Below, in pieces: positions 4,691 to 20,619 of a stretch of DNA of 64,000 nucleotides. Source of the stretch: Hericium rajendrae. Taxonomy: Eukaryota > Basidiomycota > Agaricomycetes > Russulales > Hericiaceae. The stretch's first letter is position 1. The number at the start of each line of letters is the position of its first letter. Made by a program: the position numbers and the translations under genes. The stretch is taken from positions 2,542,001-2,606,000 of the forward strand of contig CM065885.1 in assembly GCA_033439255.1 (NCBI GenBank), written 5' to 3'. Below the pieces are notes generated by a model. That model was not told the origin of the DNA. It was given only the letters and a program-made list of their open reading frames with translations, and searched no databases.

Positions 4691-6114
4691 CTACGAGCCG
4701 CTCGCGGCGACGCCCTCCTCGGCCGCGGGCTGCTGTACGGGACTCCTCGCCCCTTCCGCCGCGGCCTCAGCGCCTGCGATGGCGGGCGACGCGACTTGCA
4801 TTGGGTATCCGGTATACGGCGGCCAATAGGGCGGATATCCTGGCGGCGCCGCGTAGTATGGATAATACGCCGCCTGTGCCGCCTGTGCCTCAGGGCTGGG
4901 ATACGCCGCGTAGGCTTGTGGCGGCGGCGAGGCCGGCGACTGCGGGGACGCAGCGGCTGCCGGCGAGGAGGCGTCTTCCGCGGGCGCGGGGGTGGTGGGC
5001 GCGATTGCTGCGACGGGAGGCGGAGAGGCGATGTACGGCGCGGGGGCGTATGGGTGCGGCGGCATTGCGTAGGGCATCTGGTAGTAGCTGTGTGGGCTCA
5101 TGCCCATCTGCATGCCGTACGCGGCGGCGTAGTGCGCGTGCTGCATCATCGCCATATTGGGGTCGGCGTACGCGCCCTCCGCGGTCGGGGATGGTACGTC
5201 AGCCTGCGCGGTCTTCGTTTTCCGCGAGCGCTTCGGCGCGCTGTAGGGGTCAAAGCGCTTGCTAGCGCGCTTGGTCTCGGCGGCATCGGTCGGCTCGCTG
5301 AGGAGCGGGATTGCAAGTGTCGGGTTGAGAACATGTGGTGAAGGCTCGACGTCGTCGGCCTCGCCGCGGTAGCGTGGGACGCCGTCCATGCCGATCTCAA
5401 CTTTGGGGGGATTGCGGAATTGTGTTTTCTCGAGGTATTCGGGGGAGATGTCGAGGGAGGCGAGTTCGGGGTAGGACGATGGGGAGCGTAGACGGCCTTG
5501 TTCGACATCTTCGATCTTGTAATAAGAGATCAGGTGTTGTGAGACGCCGCCGATCGTGAGCGAAAACGTCTATCACGAAGTGTCAGTCTTCAGGTGAGAA
5601 TGCATATTCAAGGAAGGGGAGTTACCTTCTTCATCATGCCGCCGGTTTTGAACTTGTAACTGTTCGTTAAGCTGCCGACGAGGCTGCGCTCTCGATGTCG
5701 ATCGATACCCAATCGGCTCGCTTCTCCTCTTGGTCGGCTGAGCGTCTGGCCATCCTTGCCTATGTCCTGCGCTTCCTCCGCCACGACCTCCGTTCTTGCA
5801 CCGCGATGGCCCGCGCCTCTCTTCTCCGTCTCTCGATAGAGCAGAAAATTGCCCAATATGCGACTTGGACTCCAAAAAAATCCGTCTGTCCATCGCTTGA
5901 TGCCGCTCTCATCTTCGTCAAACACGAAGACCGATCCAGAGGTGATCATCTTGCGTTCAGAGTCGACGAGGCGACGCGTCACGCGGGGTATTAGGCCGCG
6001 TCGGGCGGCTTCAAGGATAAGCAGTGCGTCGCCGGTGGTCTCTATCCATCCCGACCATGGTGGTTCCGACCAGGTATTTCCTGACGATGAGGCTTGCTCC
6101 GGCGGTGATGACAT
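4691..6114 (-). CDS. WOPR-domain (Gti1/Pac2 family) transcription factor, copy A
   Basis: Two exons, 5626-6114 and 4691-5569, with a 56-nt intron (5570-5625; GTAACT donor, ATAG acceptor), encode 455 aa. The intron splits the two lobes of the WOPR DNA-binding domain. Lobe 1 (about residues 18-100) contains LIPRVTRRL, SGSVFVFDE and RWTDGFFWSPSR; lobe 2 (about 152-185) contains KTGGMMKKTFSLTIGG and HLISYYK. The C-terminal third is rich in Pro, Ala and Tyr with a basic FDPYSAPKRSRK stretch, possibly nuclear targeting. Members such as Wor1, Ryp1 and Gti1/Pac2 are nuclear regulators of morphological switching, conjugation or development; the targets of this one are unknown. The start ATG directly follows an in-frame TAG, so no longer N-terminus is possible without a further exon. 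Exon 1 encodes exactly the same 163 residues as copy B. Confidence 0.88.
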
Positions 6115-6589: not shown

Positions 6590-6900
6590 CTGAAATGTGA
6601 AACTCAGTCGTTCTTCTAGTTACTACAGCACACCGCAGCTCCCCTTGGTAAGTGCGACTTGGTCGTTTTCGCTCTCTCCCCTTTGTGCGCTCGACTTGGT
6701 CGTTTCCGCGCGCGCCGGCGCCTCTATGCGCCCGGCTCGCTCCACTCTCCCGTTTCTATTCCCCTTGGTACGGTCGATTTTTTCTATCTACTGCACACTC
6801 CGCGTCCCGCCCGCCCTTTTTTCCTCTGTTACGCTGACTTTTCCAGTCTTCTCGAACGCGCAAAATCCGTCCATTCCACGTCCCGCACGATCCCGGCGAC
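6590..6900. other. Pyrimidine-rich gene-free stretch with short direct repeats
   Basis: CT-rich + strand sequence. CGACTTGGTCGTTTYCGC occurs at about 6655 and 6691, and CCCCTTGGTA occurs near 6641 and 6761. CT-rich tracts are common at fungal transcription starts, so this could be a promoter reading into the array to its right. No gene was seen. Confidence 0.35.
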
Positions 6901-7365
6901 GCAATCCGCTCGGAAATCCGCTTTCGGGAAGAGGAGAGTGAGCGCGCTGCACACCACGCCATGTCCACGGGATCGCTGGCCGTGCTCCAGGCGCAGTTAC
7001 AGTGAGTGATTCCGGTGTCGGAGACGGCATTTACACTTACCACGGATACTGCAGAACCCGGCGACGTGTTCTTCGCTACCTCCCCACGACGCTCCTTGGC
7101 GATGATTCCCTCCGGCGGGACTCGGCGCGCTGGTCCGGACGGCGAGGGCGGGGAGCAGCCGGCAGGGAGATCGACTACGACGCATGATGCGCGTCGGTCG
7201 CGTTCAGCGCACGACGTCGTCCGCGAGGCCGCGCTGAAAATCATGGTGAGTTGCTGCACGCATGAAGAGCGCCGTATGACTTACGACGGATGCTCTTTTT
7301 GAAGACCGTGACGAGCGGATGGACGGCGACGCGAACGACGCCCGCGAGCAACCCTGCTTGATGCC

Positions 7366-10193
7366 GGCGTCATCGTCAAGTTACATGCGCCGGACGTAAA
7401 CGCCTTGCACAAGCGCCGGCGGTGTCGGCGCTCCCCCGTCGAGTCGCTGCGAGAAGTGGGAAACGTAGGCGGGGAAGGCGCGTAAGGGCACGGGGGCGGA
7501 GGAGCGACGGCCGGGAAGCGGCGTCGGGCACAGTCGACTGGAAGATGGGCTGCGCGTTGTCCGAGACGCGGCTGAAAATCAACGTGAGTAGCTGTATCTT
7601 CAGAGATGGCAGCAGCACTTACCGTATATCCTTAGGACTCGTTCTCCGTGCCTCCAGTCCCCATCTCGTGCATCAGACCGCCCCGACATCAGCACCCGAA
7701 CGTGCTAGATGGCCTCGCGCTGCGCGACCGACGCCCCCGTTCGACGCTGGCGTCATCGTCAAGTTATGCGCGCCGGATGGAGGCCGCTCATCTCAGCGCG
7801 GATGCGCCTCTAGCGAGTCGCCGTGAGAGGTGGGCAATGTCGGCGGGAAGGGCGCGGGACATTCGTCTACTTGACGATGGCCCCTTGCAGGCGCTGGGGG
7901 GATGATGGCCGGGACCTGGCGCCGGGGTAGAGTCGGCGGGAAGCTGGGCTGCGGTGGAGTTGCACGGGAGTCGATCTGCGCGAGACACGGGCGAGATCCA
8001 ACGTGAGTTGCTATGTCTTCGAAGATAGCACTATCACTCACCATCGACCCCGCACATCTCACTGTCCGTGCCTCCAGTCCCCGTCCCGCGACTCCATCGA
8101 TCTCAGCGTCTGCACGCGCGGCGCGACCAGTGCCCTGACGCGGATTTGCACAACGCCGACGAACGGTACGACAGCCGCAAGAGCAGCCTGCTCGATGCGG
8201 GCGTCATCGTCAAGTTAGACGCGCCGGACGCAAACACCTCGCACAAGCGCCGGCGGTTTCGCCGCCCCCAGAGCGTCCCAAATCGGCCCGCACACGTCTC
8301 GACGCGAACACAAGTCAGGCGACACGCGCCCCGAGGTGCTACGAGCCCAGCGACGTCGATGCATCAAGGCCATCCGCGCGTTCACGAACGTCGACGGTAA
8401 GCGCGGATGTCCGCGAGATCAGGCTGAAATTCGAGGTGAGTGGCTGTATCTTTGAAGATAGCCGTAGCACTCACCATAGATCCACAGAACTCGTTCTCCG
8501 TGCCCATCTCGCGCCTCGCCCCGCTCCGATCTCGGCGCCCGAACGCACTAGACAGCCCTCGCGCTGCGCGACCGACGAACGGCACGACGCCCAGAAGAGC
8601 AGCCTGCTCGACGCGGACGTCACCGTCAAGCTAGACGCGCCCTGGGCGCAGGCTCTCCGTCGCAGCGACGAAGCACCCAACAGATCGCCTTGAGGTGGGA
8701 ACGTCGGCGGAAACGGCGCGTGCAATCGTCTACTTGACGATGACGCCCTTGGCGCGATCAGGAGGCCGGACGCCGGGACAGAGGGAAAATCGGCGCGGCG
8801 CGGCGCTGGGGCGTCGTCGACGGGAGCGCTGCGACTCTCGGCGTCGTCGGCGTCGTTCATACGATGCGCCGACGGGATATCTTACTGCGTGCGAGGCCAG
8901 GCTGCATGTCAACGTGAGTTGCTGCGCTTTCGAAAACGCCAGTACCACTTACCACAGACTCCGCAGAATTCTCTTTCTCCATGCCTCGAATCCCTTCCAC
9001 CTCAGCTCTCGAACGCGCTATGCCTTATCCCGAGGTACGGGCGATCGGGCAGTGTTACGCCGACCCGAGGCGTCATCGTCAAGTTAGCCCGCGCCGCACG
9101 ACACGCTTGCAATGTCGGCGCGGACGGGACGGAGACGAGAGGACTGCGCGACGTCCTGTCCGTCTCGCTGAGCCGTATCGACAGGGCAGGGGAGGCAGGG
9201 CGCGAGGTGACGGCGAATCGGGACGGACCACGAGCTAGCCTGCGCGACACCGGCGTCATCGTCAAGTTAGATGCACCGGACGCAGGTCTGTCTTGTCTCG
9301 GCGACGCCGCTTCCCAACGTCCGGCGAACGAGCAAAGTCGGCATGTGCGGGACGAACACGAGAGGATCGCGGGACGGGCAACGCGGACGACGCCGTCTGC
9401 CTGACGACGAGACGCTTCGCGTGGCAGCAGGACGCAGGACGCAGGGCGGTGGATCCCTGGTAGCGCGGACGGACCGACGACAAGTGAGCCAGCACGACGC
9501 TGGCGTCATCGTCAAGTTAGACTCGCCGGACGCAAACCTCTTGGTGTCTCAGTCCCCGCCGGTCGCCGTGCGTCCTCGTGAGCCCGGTCGACGTACTTGA
9601 CGATGACGCCCTCGTGTCGCAATCGAAGTTTCTGCGAAACGAGCAGACCGGCGGCCAACAAAAGCGCGGGTGGCCCAGGGAGCTGGCAGAACGGCGCCTC
9701 GCCGACAATTCATCTACTTGACGATGAAGCCCTTGCGTCGCGATTGTATGTTGAGGTCCTGAAAGTGGCGGGACGGGCGGTCAAAGCATGTAGCAGGGAA
9801 GGAGGATAACTATGAAAACATGCATGGTAAGCACGTTGCGATATCGTTAATGGCAGCGCAACTCACCGGCCGCACAAGCCAGCGACACTCACGGTCGCAT
9901 CGCGTCTACTTGACGATGACGTCCTCGGGTCGTAATGGAGGCGTTAGGGATAGTATGGGAAGCAGCCCAATAGCAATGTAGGCGGGCTTCGACGGACGAC
10001 GCGTCCGAGTCCGTCCCGCGAGATACGGCTGAAAATAAAATTGAGTCCGTAACCTTCTGAAGTCAACGGGAACACATACCAGCCTCCACACCCGAGAGCC
10101 GGACGCGACGCCTCGCAGCTTGGGCACTGAACGCGGATTTGGGTGCCGCAGATCGACCAGAGGCGACAGAATCGTCTACTTGACGATGACGCC
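7366..10193. repeat. Dispersed 16-nt motif GGCGTCATCGTCAAGT, 13 copies in both orientations
   Basis: Forward copies (continued by TTAGA and often CGCGCCGGACGC) start at 7366, 7749, 8200, 8615 (degenerate), 9069, 9252 and 9502. Inverted copies (ACTTGACGATGACGCC, usually preceded by TCT) start at 7869, 8732, 9595, 9716, 9908 and 10178. Forward copies at 7749, 8615 and 9502 are followed 75-125 nt later by an inverted copy, so transcripts could fold into stems of about 14-16 bp; the pair 9502/9595 is perfect. The forward copies sit in a longer conserved unit around GAGCAGCCTGCTCGAYGCG. Confidence 0.75.
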
Positions 10194-10398
10194 CTTGGGT
10201 CGCGATGGCGTCGTGAGATCGTAGAACGCGCGGGCTCGGAGGCTCGAAGCAGACAGGACCCAGCGCGCGCAGTCGACGTCAGGGGAGTCCCGCTGATGGC
10301 ACCGTGTACATCACGTTGCGAGCCTGCTGGCGGCTGAGCATTCTGATTGACATGGTGAGTACTTCTTCACCTCGGCCAGTGTTGCTCTAGAGACTCAC

Positions 10399-11610
10399 TT
10401 TGCGATGCAGGACAGCTCGCGCAGGGCTGCGCCCTGCGCTCGCAGGCAACGTCAGCGGAAGCCCGCTGACATAGACTTCGTAGGCTTGTCGTTCGAGCAC
10501 GCTCGCCGCTCGGCGCGGGCCTTGAAACCTCAGAAATTTAGCCGAAAATTCCTGCTTTCTGAGAACCTCGGTGAGTCCGAATTCGTCTCGGCTAATCGTA
10601 AGTCGGAACGACTTACCAGGACACGAAGCTGCGGCACACACGTCTGAAGGGGACTCCGCCCCCTCCAAGCGGGAGGCGAGCGTCGGTCGGATGCTGAAGA
10701 CGAAGTCTTCGTCCTCCGGGCGTGAATGCCGCTCGCCGCGGGGCGTCAACTTCTGGAAAAGCGCAATGAATGGCAGGTAAGCTTGAGTAATTCTCGAGCA
10801 AACCAGCTATAGAGACATACCTACCTCAAGAGCCTTTGACTGTGTACCTCGACGACCTGAGAGCGCAACGTAGAAGGCAAAAAGTGTCGCCGGGCTGCGC
10901 CCGGCTCCAGCGCGCAGCGTCAGCATCGACGAATGGTCGATGCTGACTTCGAGTCCTTGTTCTATAGATGCGGTCGCCGCTGCCGCGGGGTACTGGATCC
11001 TGGAAAAATGGTGCCTCAAAATGAACATCTTGAGGGCTTGGTGAGTCTTAATTTTGCTTGGATAATTTAGCAGCAGAGAACTCACTAAATAACTATGCGC
11101 GGATCGCAGAGCACATTTGGAGCGCGACGGACATTACTTCAAAAGCGCCAGGCAGAAAGCGAAAGCTGTCGCCGGGCTGCGCCCGGCTCCAGCGCGCGGC
11201 GTCAGCATTGACGAACCCTCAATGTTGACTTCGAAGTCTTGCTCTACGGGAGTGCTCGCCGCTGTCGCGGGGCTCTGGATCTTGGGAAATTGGCGTTCAA
11301 AAACGAGCATCTTGAGGGTCTGCTGAGTGTGAGTGTCAATCTCGTTCGGTGAGTCTCAGTGACAGCTCACCCGATGACTTCGTGCGGGCCATACAACGCA
11401 TCAGCGACGCAGCGCAGACTGTCGCTCGGCTGCGCCGCTGCAACTTCCGCACGATTCGGCACCCAAGTGATTTGATTGCCGTGCCTACGACAACACCGAC
11501 AGATTGCCATCGTCTCCGCATTCCCCGTTCCCCGCTCGCCGCGGGGCTGAAATCCCAGGACTTCGGGACGAAGAAAGCTGCAACTCGGCCTTCAACCCTG
11601 TCCCACTGAT
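10399..11610 (-). pseudogene. Five related exon-like modules with matching hairpins; possible decayed coding repeat
   Basis: Modules lie at about 10411-10570, 10629-10776, 10831-11040, 11110-11328 and 11371-11610, each bounded by a two-faced intron. On the - strand two modules encode alignable peptides: one has SSMLTLRAGAGRSPATLFAF (10831-11030) and the other SSMLTPRAGAGRSPATAFAF (11140-11320); the module at 10411-10570 has LPASAGRSPAR. The 10831 and 10629 modules join in frame across their intron, but the next junction is out of frame and the 11110 module ends in a stop, so no long protein survives. At RNA level the same modules hold hairpins: GCCGGGC-TGC-GCCCGGC at 10889 and 11171, GCAGGGC-TGC-GCCCTGC at 10421, and GTCAGC-led stems at 10451, 10919 and 11201. 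Family unknown. Confidence 0.4.
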
Positions 11611-11659
11611 GTAAGTCTATCGTGCTCAATCCAGTCTAATGAGAATGCATACCAGGTAA

Positions 11660-12573
11660 ATCCTCTATCCATCTATCCCCACCCGACCTTCGTACAGCTA
11701 TCTGTGCTGCGGCGGGCCACGACATCTCGCAACAGCACCGAAATCTTTGAATCGGGCCATCAGGCTTTGGAGATGGACTAACCGCAGCAGTCAAATAAGC
11801 GTGCAAGGCCGCGGAAATTAAAACGAGGACATACGGTAACCAAGCGAGGACCACACGTGCGCGACCAGTAAGGCCACAACCCGTCGTGATCCACTACGAC
11901 GTCTCCGACAGCGCGCAGCGCCTGCCCATTGATCGGCGACATTCTGCTCGCCGCTCGCTGCAGCGCCGGGTCCAGTGGGGCCGGGAACTAAAGCGCGAGC
12001 GGCTGGGGATTGTCACGATCGGAGGCAGGCACATCTGGAAAAAGAAGGAGGGCTACTTCGCGTTACATAGTGCACATAGCCCCGGTAGTCGTGTAGACTA
12101 CCCCCTTGTTTGTAGCACTCTGTAGTGCGCTGCATGACCTATACAGTGCCACGTAGCTTGATATAGCTCACGGTCATCCTAGCATACCTTGTATAGCAAC
12201 AGGCTACTGGAGCTATATAAACATTATAATGTCCCATAATCACACTAGCCTATCAGTCGCATGGCTGGGACAGTTTGAACAGCAAGACAATTATATTTCG
12301 TCTGCTACTATACATATGTAATACACAGCTGTACAGCCATGGCACAATGCACAACCCCAGGTCAAGGCACTAATGTAATTCGAATGAGAACTCAATCAGA
12401 ACACTGGGCAGCAGGCAGTAGACTTACCATGTAATAATATACGAAGCATCACCCACCTGGCATGACCACAAGACCCACTCACAGATTCAACAGCACAGCT
12501 GCTCTCGACAATCCCCTTGTGCATGTCGCCAAGAGTATGCACACCTCTTGAAACCTTTTTACGTCTCTGAAAC
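11660..12573. other. Gene-free stretch right of the array
   Basis: A - strand open stretch at 11636-11854 encodes a hydrophobic start (VLAWLPYVLVLISAALHAYL) that could be a lost first exon of the array, and 11940-11960 contains a weak match to the module motif GCTCGCCGC. From 12060 the sequence is AT-richer, with TATATAAA at about 12213. Nothing else was recognised. Confidence 0.35.
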
Positions 12574-13110
12574 ATGGACACACGCACCACCGCACACATG
12601 CACCGATACTGTCCCACATCATTCGCACGGAACAAGGACCTCAAGCGGCACATGCGGCTGCACGGCGGGTGCACATAGAAGTATGGGTGGAGCAACAAGA
12701 TCTTCTCGCGGTGCAATGTGATCACGGAGCACAAGAATAGCAGCGCGCAAGGGCGGGAAGGGTGGCGGCGTGCGTCGACACGGAAATCGTGGAGGTGCAG
12801 ATCGACCGCCCAGACGACGAGACATGGATGCGCAGCTGTGGAGCGGCGTCATGAGGCATGCTGCCGAACACGCACAGCCTGGCGCAAATGGGCCCGGAGG
12901 GGATGGAAGAGGGCGAGATTTGACCAGAGGTGCTAAGGGCGGCGCAGCTTGCGGTGCTGGCGCTGCATCCGCTACCGCAAATCTGCATGTCGCACTCATC
13001 GGGCATGGCGCCAGGGCCGGTGTCCACATGCGCGAGCGCCGCACAGCGGGCAGGCGACGCTCTCCCAAGCCGACCCGTTGAAAAACACCAATAGCGGCAG
13101 AAATAGCTGT
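12574..13110 (+). pseudogene. Broken C2H2 zinc-finger transcription factor gene
   Basis: From the ATG at 12574 the frame gives CPTSFARNKDLKRHMRLHGG, a C2H2 finger with the normal loop and both histidines but only part of the cysteine pair, then an in-frame TAG. The next segment, KIFSRCNVITEHKNSS, resembles the second half of another finger. Further on, VEVQIDRPDDETWMRS and LAQMGPEGMEEGEI look like the acidic tail of such a factor and are broken by two more in-frame stops. A basidiomycete C2H2 regulator is the likely ancestor; the copy appears dead. Confidence 0.6.
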
Positions 13111-14186
13111 ACTCACCTGCACAGTCGAAAAGGGCCTGGAAACAATGCATTATCAGTCAGCTTGTAAACATTCGAAAAGAAAACGAGACATTGGTGGCGG
13201 CAATCGCAGAGGTGGTGCAGTTTCACGGAAGGAGCGTGTTGCGCTCGGTTGCGCGTCGTTATTGTTGAACACATCATCAACCAATCAGAGAACGTCACGC
13301 AGAGGCATTTCGAACTCCGAATTTAGGGCCGGCTCTGCTTGTGTTCGGGAATATACGTACTCTGCATTAACGACTCGGACGTTCAGTTCTAAATTGCCTC
13401 GAGCTTGACGTTTTGTTGACGACCGACGTAGGCGACCCATATCGTCGACGAACCTGCGGGAGTACCGTCGCCCTCGTGAAGCCACCAAACAACTTTCGCC
13501 TGATTGTCGACGACCGCTGGAGCGTGATGCGGGATGGAAAAGCTGAGCTCGTAGAGAAGATTGAAGGCTTGTTACAAAGTAGAACAGAATAAATAAAACT
13601 CTGCATAGTGCATATGGCTTCACAGTCGAGATCTAATAAGAATGAATGGAAAGCCTTATACAGGGCGGTACTGGTATGCTAATCACAGCATGCCAATTCG
13701 TGACGACGACTTCGCATGCATAGCCTCTGAGCCGTATGGCAGATTCAATAGAGAGATACATAGTCTATGGAGTTTGCAACTTCATCTATCTATACATTGT
13801 AGCTCTCCCTCAATGCAATAGTCACTACAGAGTCCCCATACCGAACCATGTACCTACTGAGAGCTACATGGGCTCTAGACAGCTACGTAGTCTAGACCGC
13901 AGCTACGGTCAGGATGCCTTTTCCAGATGTTGAGCATGTTCAGACGAGCAAGAATACCGAAGCAAGTGGCAAGGGGAAGGGGAAGGGAAAAAGGAAGGGA
14001 TATTCATAGAAATGCAAGCAGCCTTTATGCAATCGCGAGGACGGGCAAATGCCACCTTCCCTCTGTGTCCAATCTTCCGGTGCTCCGTGAGTTTATCCTT
14101 GTGCCTCTTACGTTCTGCACGACACCTCTCCTGTCACACGGCATTAGCACAGCAGCAGTAATATTTGAACCGGTCTGTCCATGTAT
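13111..14186. other. Gene-free stretch between zinc-finger relic and GWP gene
   Basis: AT-richer sequence with short purine tracts (around 13970-14000). Only small overlapping open frames without recognisable domains are present. Confidence 0.4.
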
Positions 14187-14900
14187 CTAATCCATGTCGT
14201 CTGAATCCTCCACCAATCGGTCAGATTTTGAATACCGTATCCGTTTCCTGCGGCGTCCGGCCTGCCCCTTCTGCAGGTAAGGCCGCAGCTCTCCTGCATC
14301 GATGCGCTGTGGTTTTGGTTGTGACGGTTGCCCGTTAGTGCTGCCCGACGTCTGATATCGATCTCGCCGCTCAAGTACCTCGGTTTCCGAGAGCGGACGG
14401 AAGTACGTGTGACCGAGCTCCCAAGCCTGGATGACACGCTCGAGAGACTTCTTACGGAGACTTTTCTGCTTGCTGAGATCCCCGAAAAGCACGCCGTCAC
14501 CATCTGGCCCTGGCTCCGGCCATCCTTCAACATCGACATGATACCGTTCTACAACCTCATCTCCGTAACGTGCCCAAGACATTTTCGCTTCCGGATCCCC
14601 GGTCACACGCACTAGAAAGGAATGGTGAGAATTCAGATCAAATTTGACGGCAACAAGATGAAGTCAATCTCGTACCCAAGTCGGCCTGGATCAGTGCACG
14701 GAGCTTCCCGCGGAGCTTGTTTACCGGACGTGGCCGGGGCTTTGCCGCTAAGAACCATTCCAATCTGTTAGTTAGCCGATGATGCTGATGCGCGACAGAC
14801 AGGATGACTTACGGCGGCATCTCTGCTTGGTCCGTTTGTGACCTTGAAGATCATTGGATGATTCTTGAAGCATACCGACTGAATGCTCTGTCCGTCTCAT
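14187..14900 (-). CDS. GWP-motif protein of unknown function, copy B
   Basis: Three exons (14813-14900, 14676-14747, 14187-14611) with introns of 65 nt (GTAAGT, CTAAC branch, TTCTTAG) and 64 nt (GTACGA, CTCAC branch, TTTCTAG) encode 194 aa. The N-terminus is basic (HKRTKQRC, then KPRPRPVNK), followed by KLRALIQADLVRVTGDPEAK, MSWARYGDEVVERYHVDVEG, then GWP at residues 83-85, LERVIQAWELG, and a basic C-terminus with RRRKRIRYSK. The layout K-W-x-x-Y, GWP, L-x(n)-W/G recurs in a large mushroom-only family that I recognise but cannot assign a role. The two basic stretches suggest nuclear or nucleic-acid contact, which is inference. The model is supported by the partial copy A, which keeps all visible splice sites and phases. 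Start chosen at MRRTEHS; an in-frame ATT/ATG region upstream to 14987 leaves a longer start possible. Confidence 0.6.
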
Positions 14901-19210: not shown

Positions 19211-20619
19211 CTACGAGCCGCTGGCCGCGACGCCCTCCTCGGCCGCAGGCTGCTGCGGGCTCTTCGCCCCGTCCGCCTCCGCAACCGCGATGGCGGGCGA
19301 CGCAACCTGCATCGGGTATCCAGTGTACGGCGGCCAATAGGGCGGATATCCTGGCGGCGCCGCGTAGTACGGATAATACGCCGCCTGCGCGGCCTGGGCC
19401 TCGGGACTGGGGTACGCCGCGTACGCCTGTGGCGGCGGCGACGTCGGCGACTGTGGGGACGCAGCGGCTGCCGGCGACGAGGCGTCTTCGGCGGGTGCTG
19501 GCGCTGGCGATGGAGCAGCGGCGATCGGAGGCGGAGAGGCGATGTACGGTGCGGGGGCGTATGGATGCGGGGGCATCGCGTATGGCATCTGGTAATAGCT
19601 GTGTGGGCTCATGCCCATCTGCATACCGTACGCGGCGGCGTAGTGCGCGTGCTGCATCATGGCCATGTTCGGGTCGGCATACGCGCCTTCAGCGGTGGGC
19701 GATGGCGCTTCGCTCTGCGCGGTCTTCGCCTTGCGGGAGCGTTTTGGCGCGCTGTAGGGATCGAAGCGCTTACTGGCGCGCTTGCTCTCGGCGGCGTCGG
19801 TCGGCTCGCTCAGCAGTGGGATCGCGAGCGTGGGATTGAGAACGTGCGGGGAGGGCTCGACGTCGTCTGCTTCGCCTCGGTAGCGGGGGACGCCGTCCAT
19901 GCCGATTTCGACCTTGGGGGGATTGCGAAATTGCGTCTTTTCAAGGTATTCGGGGGAGATGTCGAGGGAAGCGAGTTCGGGGTAGGAGGAAGGGGAGCGT
20001 AGACGGCCTTGTTCGACGTCTTCGATCTTGTAGTAAGAGATAAGGTGTTGGGAGACGCCGCCGATCGTGAGCGAAAACGTCTATCATGACGGGTGAGTCT
20101 TCGGCGACGGGAGTATGGAAGGGGAATTACCTTCTTCATCATGCCGCCGGTTTTGAACTTGTAGCTGTTGGTTAAACTGCCGACGAGGCTGCGCTCTCGA
20201 TGTCGATCGATGCCCAATCGGCTCGCTTCTCCTCTTGGTCGGCTGAGCGTCTGGCCGTCCTTGCCTATGTCCTGCGCTTCCTCCGCCACGACCTCCGTTC
20301 TTGCGCCGCGATGGCCTGCTCCCCTCTTCTCCGTCTCTCGATAGAGCAGAAAATTGCCCAATATGCGACTTGGGCTCCAAAAAAATCCGTCTGTCCATCG
20401 CTTGATGCCGCTCTCGTCTTCGTCAAACACGAACACCGATCCAGAGGTGATCATCTTGCGTTCAGAGTCGACGAGGCGACGCGTCACACGGGGTATGAGG
20501 CCGCGTCGGGCGGCTTCAAGGATAAGCAGTGCGTCGCCGGTGGTCTCTATCCATCCCGACCATGGTGGTTCCGACCACGTATTGCCTGACGATGAGGCTT
20601 GCTCCGGCGGTGATGACAT
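19211..20619 (-). CDS. WOPR-domain (Gti1/Pac2 family) transcription factor, copy B
   Basis: Exons 20131-20619 and 19211-20080 with a 50-nt intron (20081-20130; GTAATT donor, ATAG acceptor) encode 452 aa. Domain layout is as in copy A: LIPRVTRRL, RWTDGFFWSPSR, MMKKTFSLTIGG and HLISYYKIEDVEQG. Exon 1 protein is identical to copy A. Exon 2 differs at many bases but mostly at third positions or by small in-frame indels in the Pro/Ala-rich tail, which indicates that both copies have been kept under selection for protein sequence. The tail keeps FDPYSAPKRSRK and repeated Y-P-Y and P-Y-A patterns. The intron is 6 nt shorter than in copy A. Two intact copies of a developmental switch regulator so close together raise the chance of dosage or subfunction change, which is inference. 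Confidence 0.88.

Follow-up and report, generated by a model that had tools for sequence, protein, structure and literature searches.

Symmetrical stwintrons of the Hypoxylaceae contain an inverted repeat of 45-55 nucleotides (nt) and, according to the authors in the part of their account drawn on here, function on the coding strand alone (PMC8469720). Introners, in the sections of a second account, are repeated introns, some of which carry terminal inverted repeats (PMC9860276); repetition is shared by the elements described below. No family of introns spliceable from both strands was found in the open-licence literature searched. Here, an array of short elements with mirrored splice signals was analysed in a 64,000-nucleotide stretch of Hericium rajendrae (assembly GCA_033439255.1, contig CM065885.1), corresponding to C8:2542001-2606000 (G000) and termed the window throughout. 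The genome searched comprised 46.8 Mb in 19 contigs.

Mirrored elements and their signals

Elements were scanned for as GTRAGY followed by RCTYAC or RCATAC, and overlapping alternatives were set aside. The strict form comprised GTRAGY, a length of 36-47 nt and RCTYAC. Thirteen elements with a left donor and a right reversed donor, plus one decayed element, were located at 7002-11652 of the window (Table 1). An earlier note, made from the sequence, had described an array of 14 elements there, the first six exactly 39 nt long and the rest 39-46 nt. Both the array, including the decayed member at 10041, and these lengths were recovered by pattern scan and inspection of the sequence.

The pattern was far above chance and had no counterpart among ordinary donors. 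Positions 7001-11700 held 11 strict elements, against a mean of 0.05 and a maximum of 1 in 200 dinucleotide shuffles, in agreement with the earlier claim that chance does not account for them. The rest of the window held one (17424; mean 0.6, maximum 3, 30 shuffles). Mirrored ends had been said to be lacking from the introns of ordinary genes, and among 82 GTRAGY sites at 21-64 kb of the window (both strands) none was followed by RCTYAC 20-74 nt downstream; two had it at 75-79 nt. With a distance of 28-50 nt, RCTYAC followed 175 of 285 donors in the arrays (52 kb, every element counted from both strands) and 0 of 153 in control DNA (90.8 kb, rather than the whole gene set, with introns derived from motifs and not from transcripts). 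The mirror is therefore not the usual branch site viewed from the opposite strand, and equal frequency in ordinary donors, which the note had named as evidence against its claim, was not found. A CTRAY branch site accompanied 24 of the 153 control donors and 19 of the 285 array donors. Control donors with a CTNAC branch site had CTRAC in 10 cases and CTYAC in 3. One control stretch (L068) holds a single element that fits the looser pattern, with GCATAC as its right end.

Across the genome, 105 distinct elements were collected from 24 stretches, those within one stretch being of common descent. Lengths ranged from 36 to 47 nt with peaks at 39 (n=27) and 45 (n=31), and G+C was 48% in the interiors and 54% and 60% in the outer flanks. 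G was present at -1 in 68% of left and 71% of right ends, and T at +6 in 84% and 86%. Given a right end (n=151, from paralogous and partly redundant stretches), the left end read GTGAG in 87 cases, GTAAG in 18, GTCAG in 7 and GTTAG in 2. The base at +3 of the left end is thus R, as in a donor, where a branch site by itself would tolerate any base. A YAG lay within 40 nt of the element in 96 of 104 cases on the minus side and 80 of 104 on the plus side, bearing out the description of an AG beyond both ends; the GT donor, AG acceptor and shortness are as in ordinary introns. The first YAG was 11-12 nt out in 49/104 on the minus side and 10-17 nt out in 56/104 on the plus side.

Pairing between or within the ends does not explain the symmetry. 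The combinations of left base 3 and the right base (G/C 47, G/T 36, A/C 17, A/T 5) varied independently, the trend (Fisher p 0.09) running away from pairing. The inner arms, which the note had described as pairing, did so no better than shuffled arms in the 25 left-type 39-nt elements (64.8% of cells in each; 546 of 1000 shuffles as high), and in all 27 39-nt elements the figures were 63.7% and 59.4% (79 of 1000 as high). With arm pairing at the shuffled level, the compensated change reported at 8436 does not stand for the elements in general. Because the ends are independent and the arms pair no more than by chance, pairing within the RNA was rejected for both, and a hairpin is not the cause of the mirror. 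Considered as terminal inverted repeats, the ends are complementary in motif, yet they vary independently.

Spacers, repeat units and conservation

Inner-array elements are separated by spacers, each a module of ~95-120 nt with three hairpins. Of 33 modules, 27 were prepared and 18 of these aligned, and the structure was drawn from the same 18 sequences on which it was tested. In these, 91.8% of cells paired (83.8% shuffled) and 13 of 23 pairs changed on both sides, with 34 such cells against 10.8 and no shuffle of 500 as high; for a second measure, further pair types, 11 of 500 shuffles were as high as the observed value. Sliding the partner by 1-3 columns lowered pairing to 35-46%. No Rfam 15 family matched the 64-kb window at its curated score. 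A protein-coding role for the spacers was rejected, as spliced spacers from five loci were interrupted by stops in all frames of either strand. Compared with its cluster copy A1, the window showed substitutions without codon phase, and indels in multiples of three in 10 of 29 cases (outer part).

A covariance model of the spacer gave 89 matches at E ≤0.01 in the 23 stretches searched. The gaps between matches were then read for elements, so that this count started from spacers and not from elements; gaps adjoining training modules were tallied apart, since flanking elements had served to select those modules. Initially 71 of the 89 matches were used, the 18 omitted being 4 from the window (identical to A1), 5 near-copies from B1, 6 antisense and 3 others. 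With these 3 added back, 31 gaps adjoined no training module: both ends were perfect in 16, and 27 fitted at 11 or more of 12 positions (reversed, 0 and 1). For the 21 gaps adjoining a training module the figures were 18 and 21. Counting B1, 35 independent gaps gave 17 and 30 (reversed, 0 and 1). In this test the L030 paralog stood in for the C4 training spacer from L035.

Related sequence was present on at least 11 contigs (C1, C2, C3, C4, C6, C7, C8, C9, C10, C11 and C13). The element scan took 18 of 54 loci, leaving out those on C1, C11 and C13; each of the 18 held at least one mirrored element, and these lay on eight contigs (C2, C3, C4, C6, C7, C8, C9 and C10). In cluster A on C8, which includes the window array, the unit repeats every ~12.75 kb. 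Cluster B, also on C8, has three copies 13.5 kb apart; C4 has four ~12.8-13.0 kb apart and C11 two, 12.4 kb apart. Spacer and element were duplicated jointly, and units of ~12-13.5 kb stand in tandem. Of the copying mechanisms proposed earlier, module amplification is thus visible, whereas introner-like spread of single introns was not seen in comparisons of clusters A and B.

The ends of the elements are conserved. In 35 disjoint pairs across stretches, both members pattern-selected beforehand, changes affected 5 of 210 positions (2.4%) in the left hexamers and 16 of 210 (7.6%) in the right, against ~27% in interiors and flanks. Alignment from the window elements into cluster copy B3 gave left ends that fitted in 7 of 9 and right ends in 8 of 9, with interior identity of 67%; in B1 the counts were 6 of 8 and 7 of 8. 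Of 13 window elements, four could not be aligned in B3 and five in B1. The four A/B comparisons left out 5, 4, 5 and 4 elements whose flanks gave no usable alignment. Lost elements showed decayed ends, and no clean empty site was seen in these comparisons, no systematic search for empty sites having been made.

At C4, two arms of 976 bp with 88.3% identity lie inverted, 3.2 kb apart, with mirrored elements on both. At ~2.34-2.35 Mb of C8, matches occur in both orientations. The outer array part contains a 16-mer, ACTTGACGATGACGCC, which consists of two successive TGACG half-sites. It has 126 + 129 = 255 exact genome copies in the two orientations, against 0 for the word read backwards; among the places listed, its orientation switches in blocks along C1:4.93-5.00 Mb.

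A dispersed repeat on C2 extends from at least 292908 to 310738 (at least 17.8 kb; L062, L065, L066, L068) and contains three copies of ACTTGACGATGACGCC, three strict mirrored elements and one element ending GCATAC. A 3-kb piece of it has 11 further full-length matches at 98-99% identity, and such near-identical copies with elements indicate recent movement of element-bearing DNA. No transposase was found among eight open reading frames (ORFs) scanned from this repeat. It also holds a 635-amino-acid ORF with an F-box-like match slightly below the Pfam cut-off. C2:292908 was rejected as its left end, as another repeat abuts there in the C2 copy. This second family (L068:1-2407; C2:290501-292907) has many copies of 74-93% identity, ending at its base 2407-2408.

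Several neighbours of the array were recorded. The 158-amino-acid ORF in Table 1 has 11 genome matches and no Pfam family above cut-off; it adjoins arrays on C2, C7 and C10 in the orientation of the window and on C11 in the opposite one. Three WOPR (Gti1/Pac2) genes lie in cluster A units (window 5608-6114 and ~20113-20562, minus; C8:2534864-2535298), and WOPR matches elsewhere are mostly single. The array as 5' leader of a WOPR gene was rejected, as cluster B has the array without any of the 11 WOPR matches. Positions 12033-13929 (~1.9 kb) are missing from the neighbouring cluster A unit, where 130 bases stand instead. Directly left of the array, a block at 6594-6938 is conserved between clusters A and B and pyrimidine-rich on the plus strand; it could be the promoter of a plus-strand transcript.

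Table 1. Features located in the window (positions counted from its first base)
Feature	Position	Strand	Remarks
Mirrored element 1	7002..7040	.	39 nt; pattern scan
Mirrored element 2	7246..7284	.	39 nt; pattern scan
Mirrored element 3	7584..7622	.	39 nt; pattern scan
Mirrored element 4	8003..8041	.	39 nt; pattern scan
Mirrored element 5	8436..8474	.	39 nt; pattern scan
Mirrored element 6	8914..8952	.	39 nt; pattern scan
Mirrored element 7	9827..9866	.	40 nt; pattern scan
Element 8	10041..10079	.	39 nt; TTGAGT replaces left donor; right end ACATAC; from sequence
Mirrored element 9	10355..10398	.	44 nt; pattern scan
Mirrored element 10	10571..10616	.	46 nt; pattern scan
Element 11	10777..10820	.	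44 nt; right end ACATAC; pattern scan
Mirrored element 12	11041..11085	.	45 nt; pattern scan
Mirrored element 13	11329..11370	.	42 nt; pattern scan
Element 14	11611..11652	.	42 nt; right end GCATAC; pattern scan
Spacer hairpin module	10417..10525	+	model R1, 92 bits, E 1.5e-14; paralog L056 in training set
Spacer hairpin module, diverged	10644..10748	+	model R1, 42.7 bits, E 5.4e-06
Spacer hairpin module	10885..10995	+	model R1, 101.3 bits; paralog in training set
Spacer hairpin module	11167..11277	+	model R1, 102.6 bits; paralog in training set
Outer array part, 13 copies of ACTTGACGATGACGCC	7366..10193	.	≤3 mismatches
ACTTGACGATGACGCC, plus copies	7869, 8732, 9595, 9716, 9908, 10178	+	6 copies
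ACTTGACGATGACGCC, minus copies	7366, 7749, 8200, 8616, 9069, 9252, 9502	-	7 copies
158-amino-acid ORF	14190..14663	-	near array; common to clusters A and B; 87% amino-acid identity

Proposed splicing from either strand and its rivals

The reading favoured here, tentatively and as something short of probable, is that these are introns lying in structured non-coding repeats, kept open to splicing from either strand in arrays read both ways. Each element would be a short U2-type intron, or at least a set of intron signals, within a non-coding repeat array, and an inner-array module would comprise a structured spacer and one mirrored intron. Since GTRAGY is the complement of RCTYAC, the branch site of one strand would double as the donor of the other, and the AG farther out on each side would allow RNA of either strand to lose an intron at roughly one position. 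Modules would have multiplied first in tandem, then as units of ~12-13.5 kb and across the genome. The mirror may have been kept because the arrays are transcribed in both directions, with arms inverted and copies in either orientation; any transcript crossing an array would then stay spliceable, or at least bound by U1. The consensus of basidiomycete branch sites, the pairing of U1 with donors and the role of U1 in transcript elongation form the background to this scheme. The wider proposal of a class of either-strand introns, resident in inverted, mobile, structured non-coding arrays and spliced in whichever direction these are read, is put forward more cautiously, as a possibility.

Several points weigh against splicing from either strand. 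That the arrays are transcribed and spliced, that both strands are used and why the mirror is kept are each inferred from sequence. The counts given above are not of independent events, because elements of one stretch share descent. Plus acceptors are less regular, as 24 of 104 elements lack a YAG within 40 nt on that side, compared with 8 of 104 on the minus side, and right ends of the form RCATAC are donors for the minus strand and poor branch sites for the plus strand. Acceptor AGs changed in 15% and 14% of cases, not far from the 25% and 24% of wrong-strand controls (42-60 sites); conservation being equal on both sides, it was discarded as an indicator of strand. Inverted arms were read directly at C4 alone, and the window shows one arm.

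A serious rival, though an unlikely one, is that the elements are one-way introns of a non-coding minus-strand transcript, in which the right end would supply the donor and the left end the branch site RCTYAC, followed 11-12 nt on by an AG; the plus donor would then be incidental to a branch site passed on by descent. The sharper spacing of minus acceptors fits this, as does the match of RCATAC ends to the donor GTATGY, and left ends are preserved no worse than right ends. Decay was tallied by hand over 30 module gaps, counting a donor as kept if GT was kept and a branch site if yUnAy was kept: among 13 elements with a single decayed end, nine were usable from the minus strand and six from the plus, some from both. 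The tally, which leans towards the minus strand, shows the argument for that strand drawn earlier from the lost plus donor at 10041 to be weak. The left ends themselves speak against minus-only use. CTNAC sites in the control favour CTRAC over CTYAC, whereas array left ends are nearly all of the R form of GTNAG, with the G at -1 and T at +6 of a donor, and plus YAGs are enriched 10-17 nt out.

It is distinctly unlikely that the elements are no introns but inverted, paired binding sites in DNA or RNA that resemble donors. No transcript from the arrays is known, and the neighbouring ACTTGACGATGACGCC likewise stands in both orientations, as is common among binding sites. Such sites would not, however, account for lengths within the 35-49 nt that separate donor and branch site at most control CTRAC sites, for AGs enriched beyond both ends, or for ends that do not pair.

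More doubtful again are one-way introns of the plus strand. Left hexamers are the least changed, as donors should be, and the element at 11611 also has an ordinary branch site on the plus strand, CTAAT (in cluster B, CTGAC), ahead of a CAG, but right ends keep the form of a minus donor, including G at -1, and minus acceptors are the more regular. Spacer structure gave no single direction: the plus strand was more stable in 4 of 12 modules (the 12 of 33 handled by the anchoring script), and G-U pairs judged by eye favour plus in some hairpins and minus in others.

Introner-like mobile introns inserted singly were already disfavoured and are highly improbable: the elements are short, repeated and symmetric, and symmetric proliferating introns are described for the Hypoxylaceae in the part of the account used (PMC8469720), but here the elements are flanked by homologous spacers within duplicated modules, the strict form is absent from 90.8 kb of control, interiors are diverged, and elements lost between clusters A and B left decayed ends.

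Comparison with known systems

Should splicing occur on both strands, direction would not be a necessary property of an intron, and its branch site could be dictated by the donor of the opposite strand. This would account for how RNA that crosses repeats in inverted or random orientation avoids retaining introns, and would offer a natural system in which to test how polarity is set by the spliceosome. Even if splicing proves otherwise, the arrays make up a non-coding repeat family that is widespread, has hairpins that covary and, within the window, matches nothing in Rfam.

Ordinary introns would be expected to show mainly CTRAY on one strand; the arrays instead gave RCTYAC at 175 and CTRAY at 19 of 285 donors. 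In the available part of a study on fission yeast, cryptic introns of repeats that produce small interfering RNAs (siRNAs), and on which these siRNAs depend, are similar in that several introns lie in non-coding repeat transcripts and both repeat strands are transcribed; those introns are mainly on one strand, whereas here the signals of both strands coincide (PMC11696164). Galileo foldback elements, in the portion of the account consulted, resemble the C4 locus in their long, internally repetitive inverted arms (PMC3573991). Such an arrangement of arms was found at C4 alone, no transposase was found in the eight ORFs, and Galileo arms are not described as introns in that portion (PMC3573991).

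Introners, in the sections cited, insert singly into genes, while the introns here multiply together with their spacers (PMC9860276). Near-identical introns in many unrelated genes were not found, the elements lying between related spacers and 0 of 153 control donors being mirrored. The symmetrical stwintrons and cropped sister introns of the Hypoxylaceae are similar in being fungal, proliferated and, in the best cases, symmetric about a central palindrome (PMC8469720, in part). A long inverted repeat of that kind was not found here, since inner arms of the 25 left-type elements pair as shuffled ones do. Unlike stwintrons as that part describes them, the elements of this array have mirrored splice signals alone, around unpaired interiors and within non-coding modules (PMC8469720).

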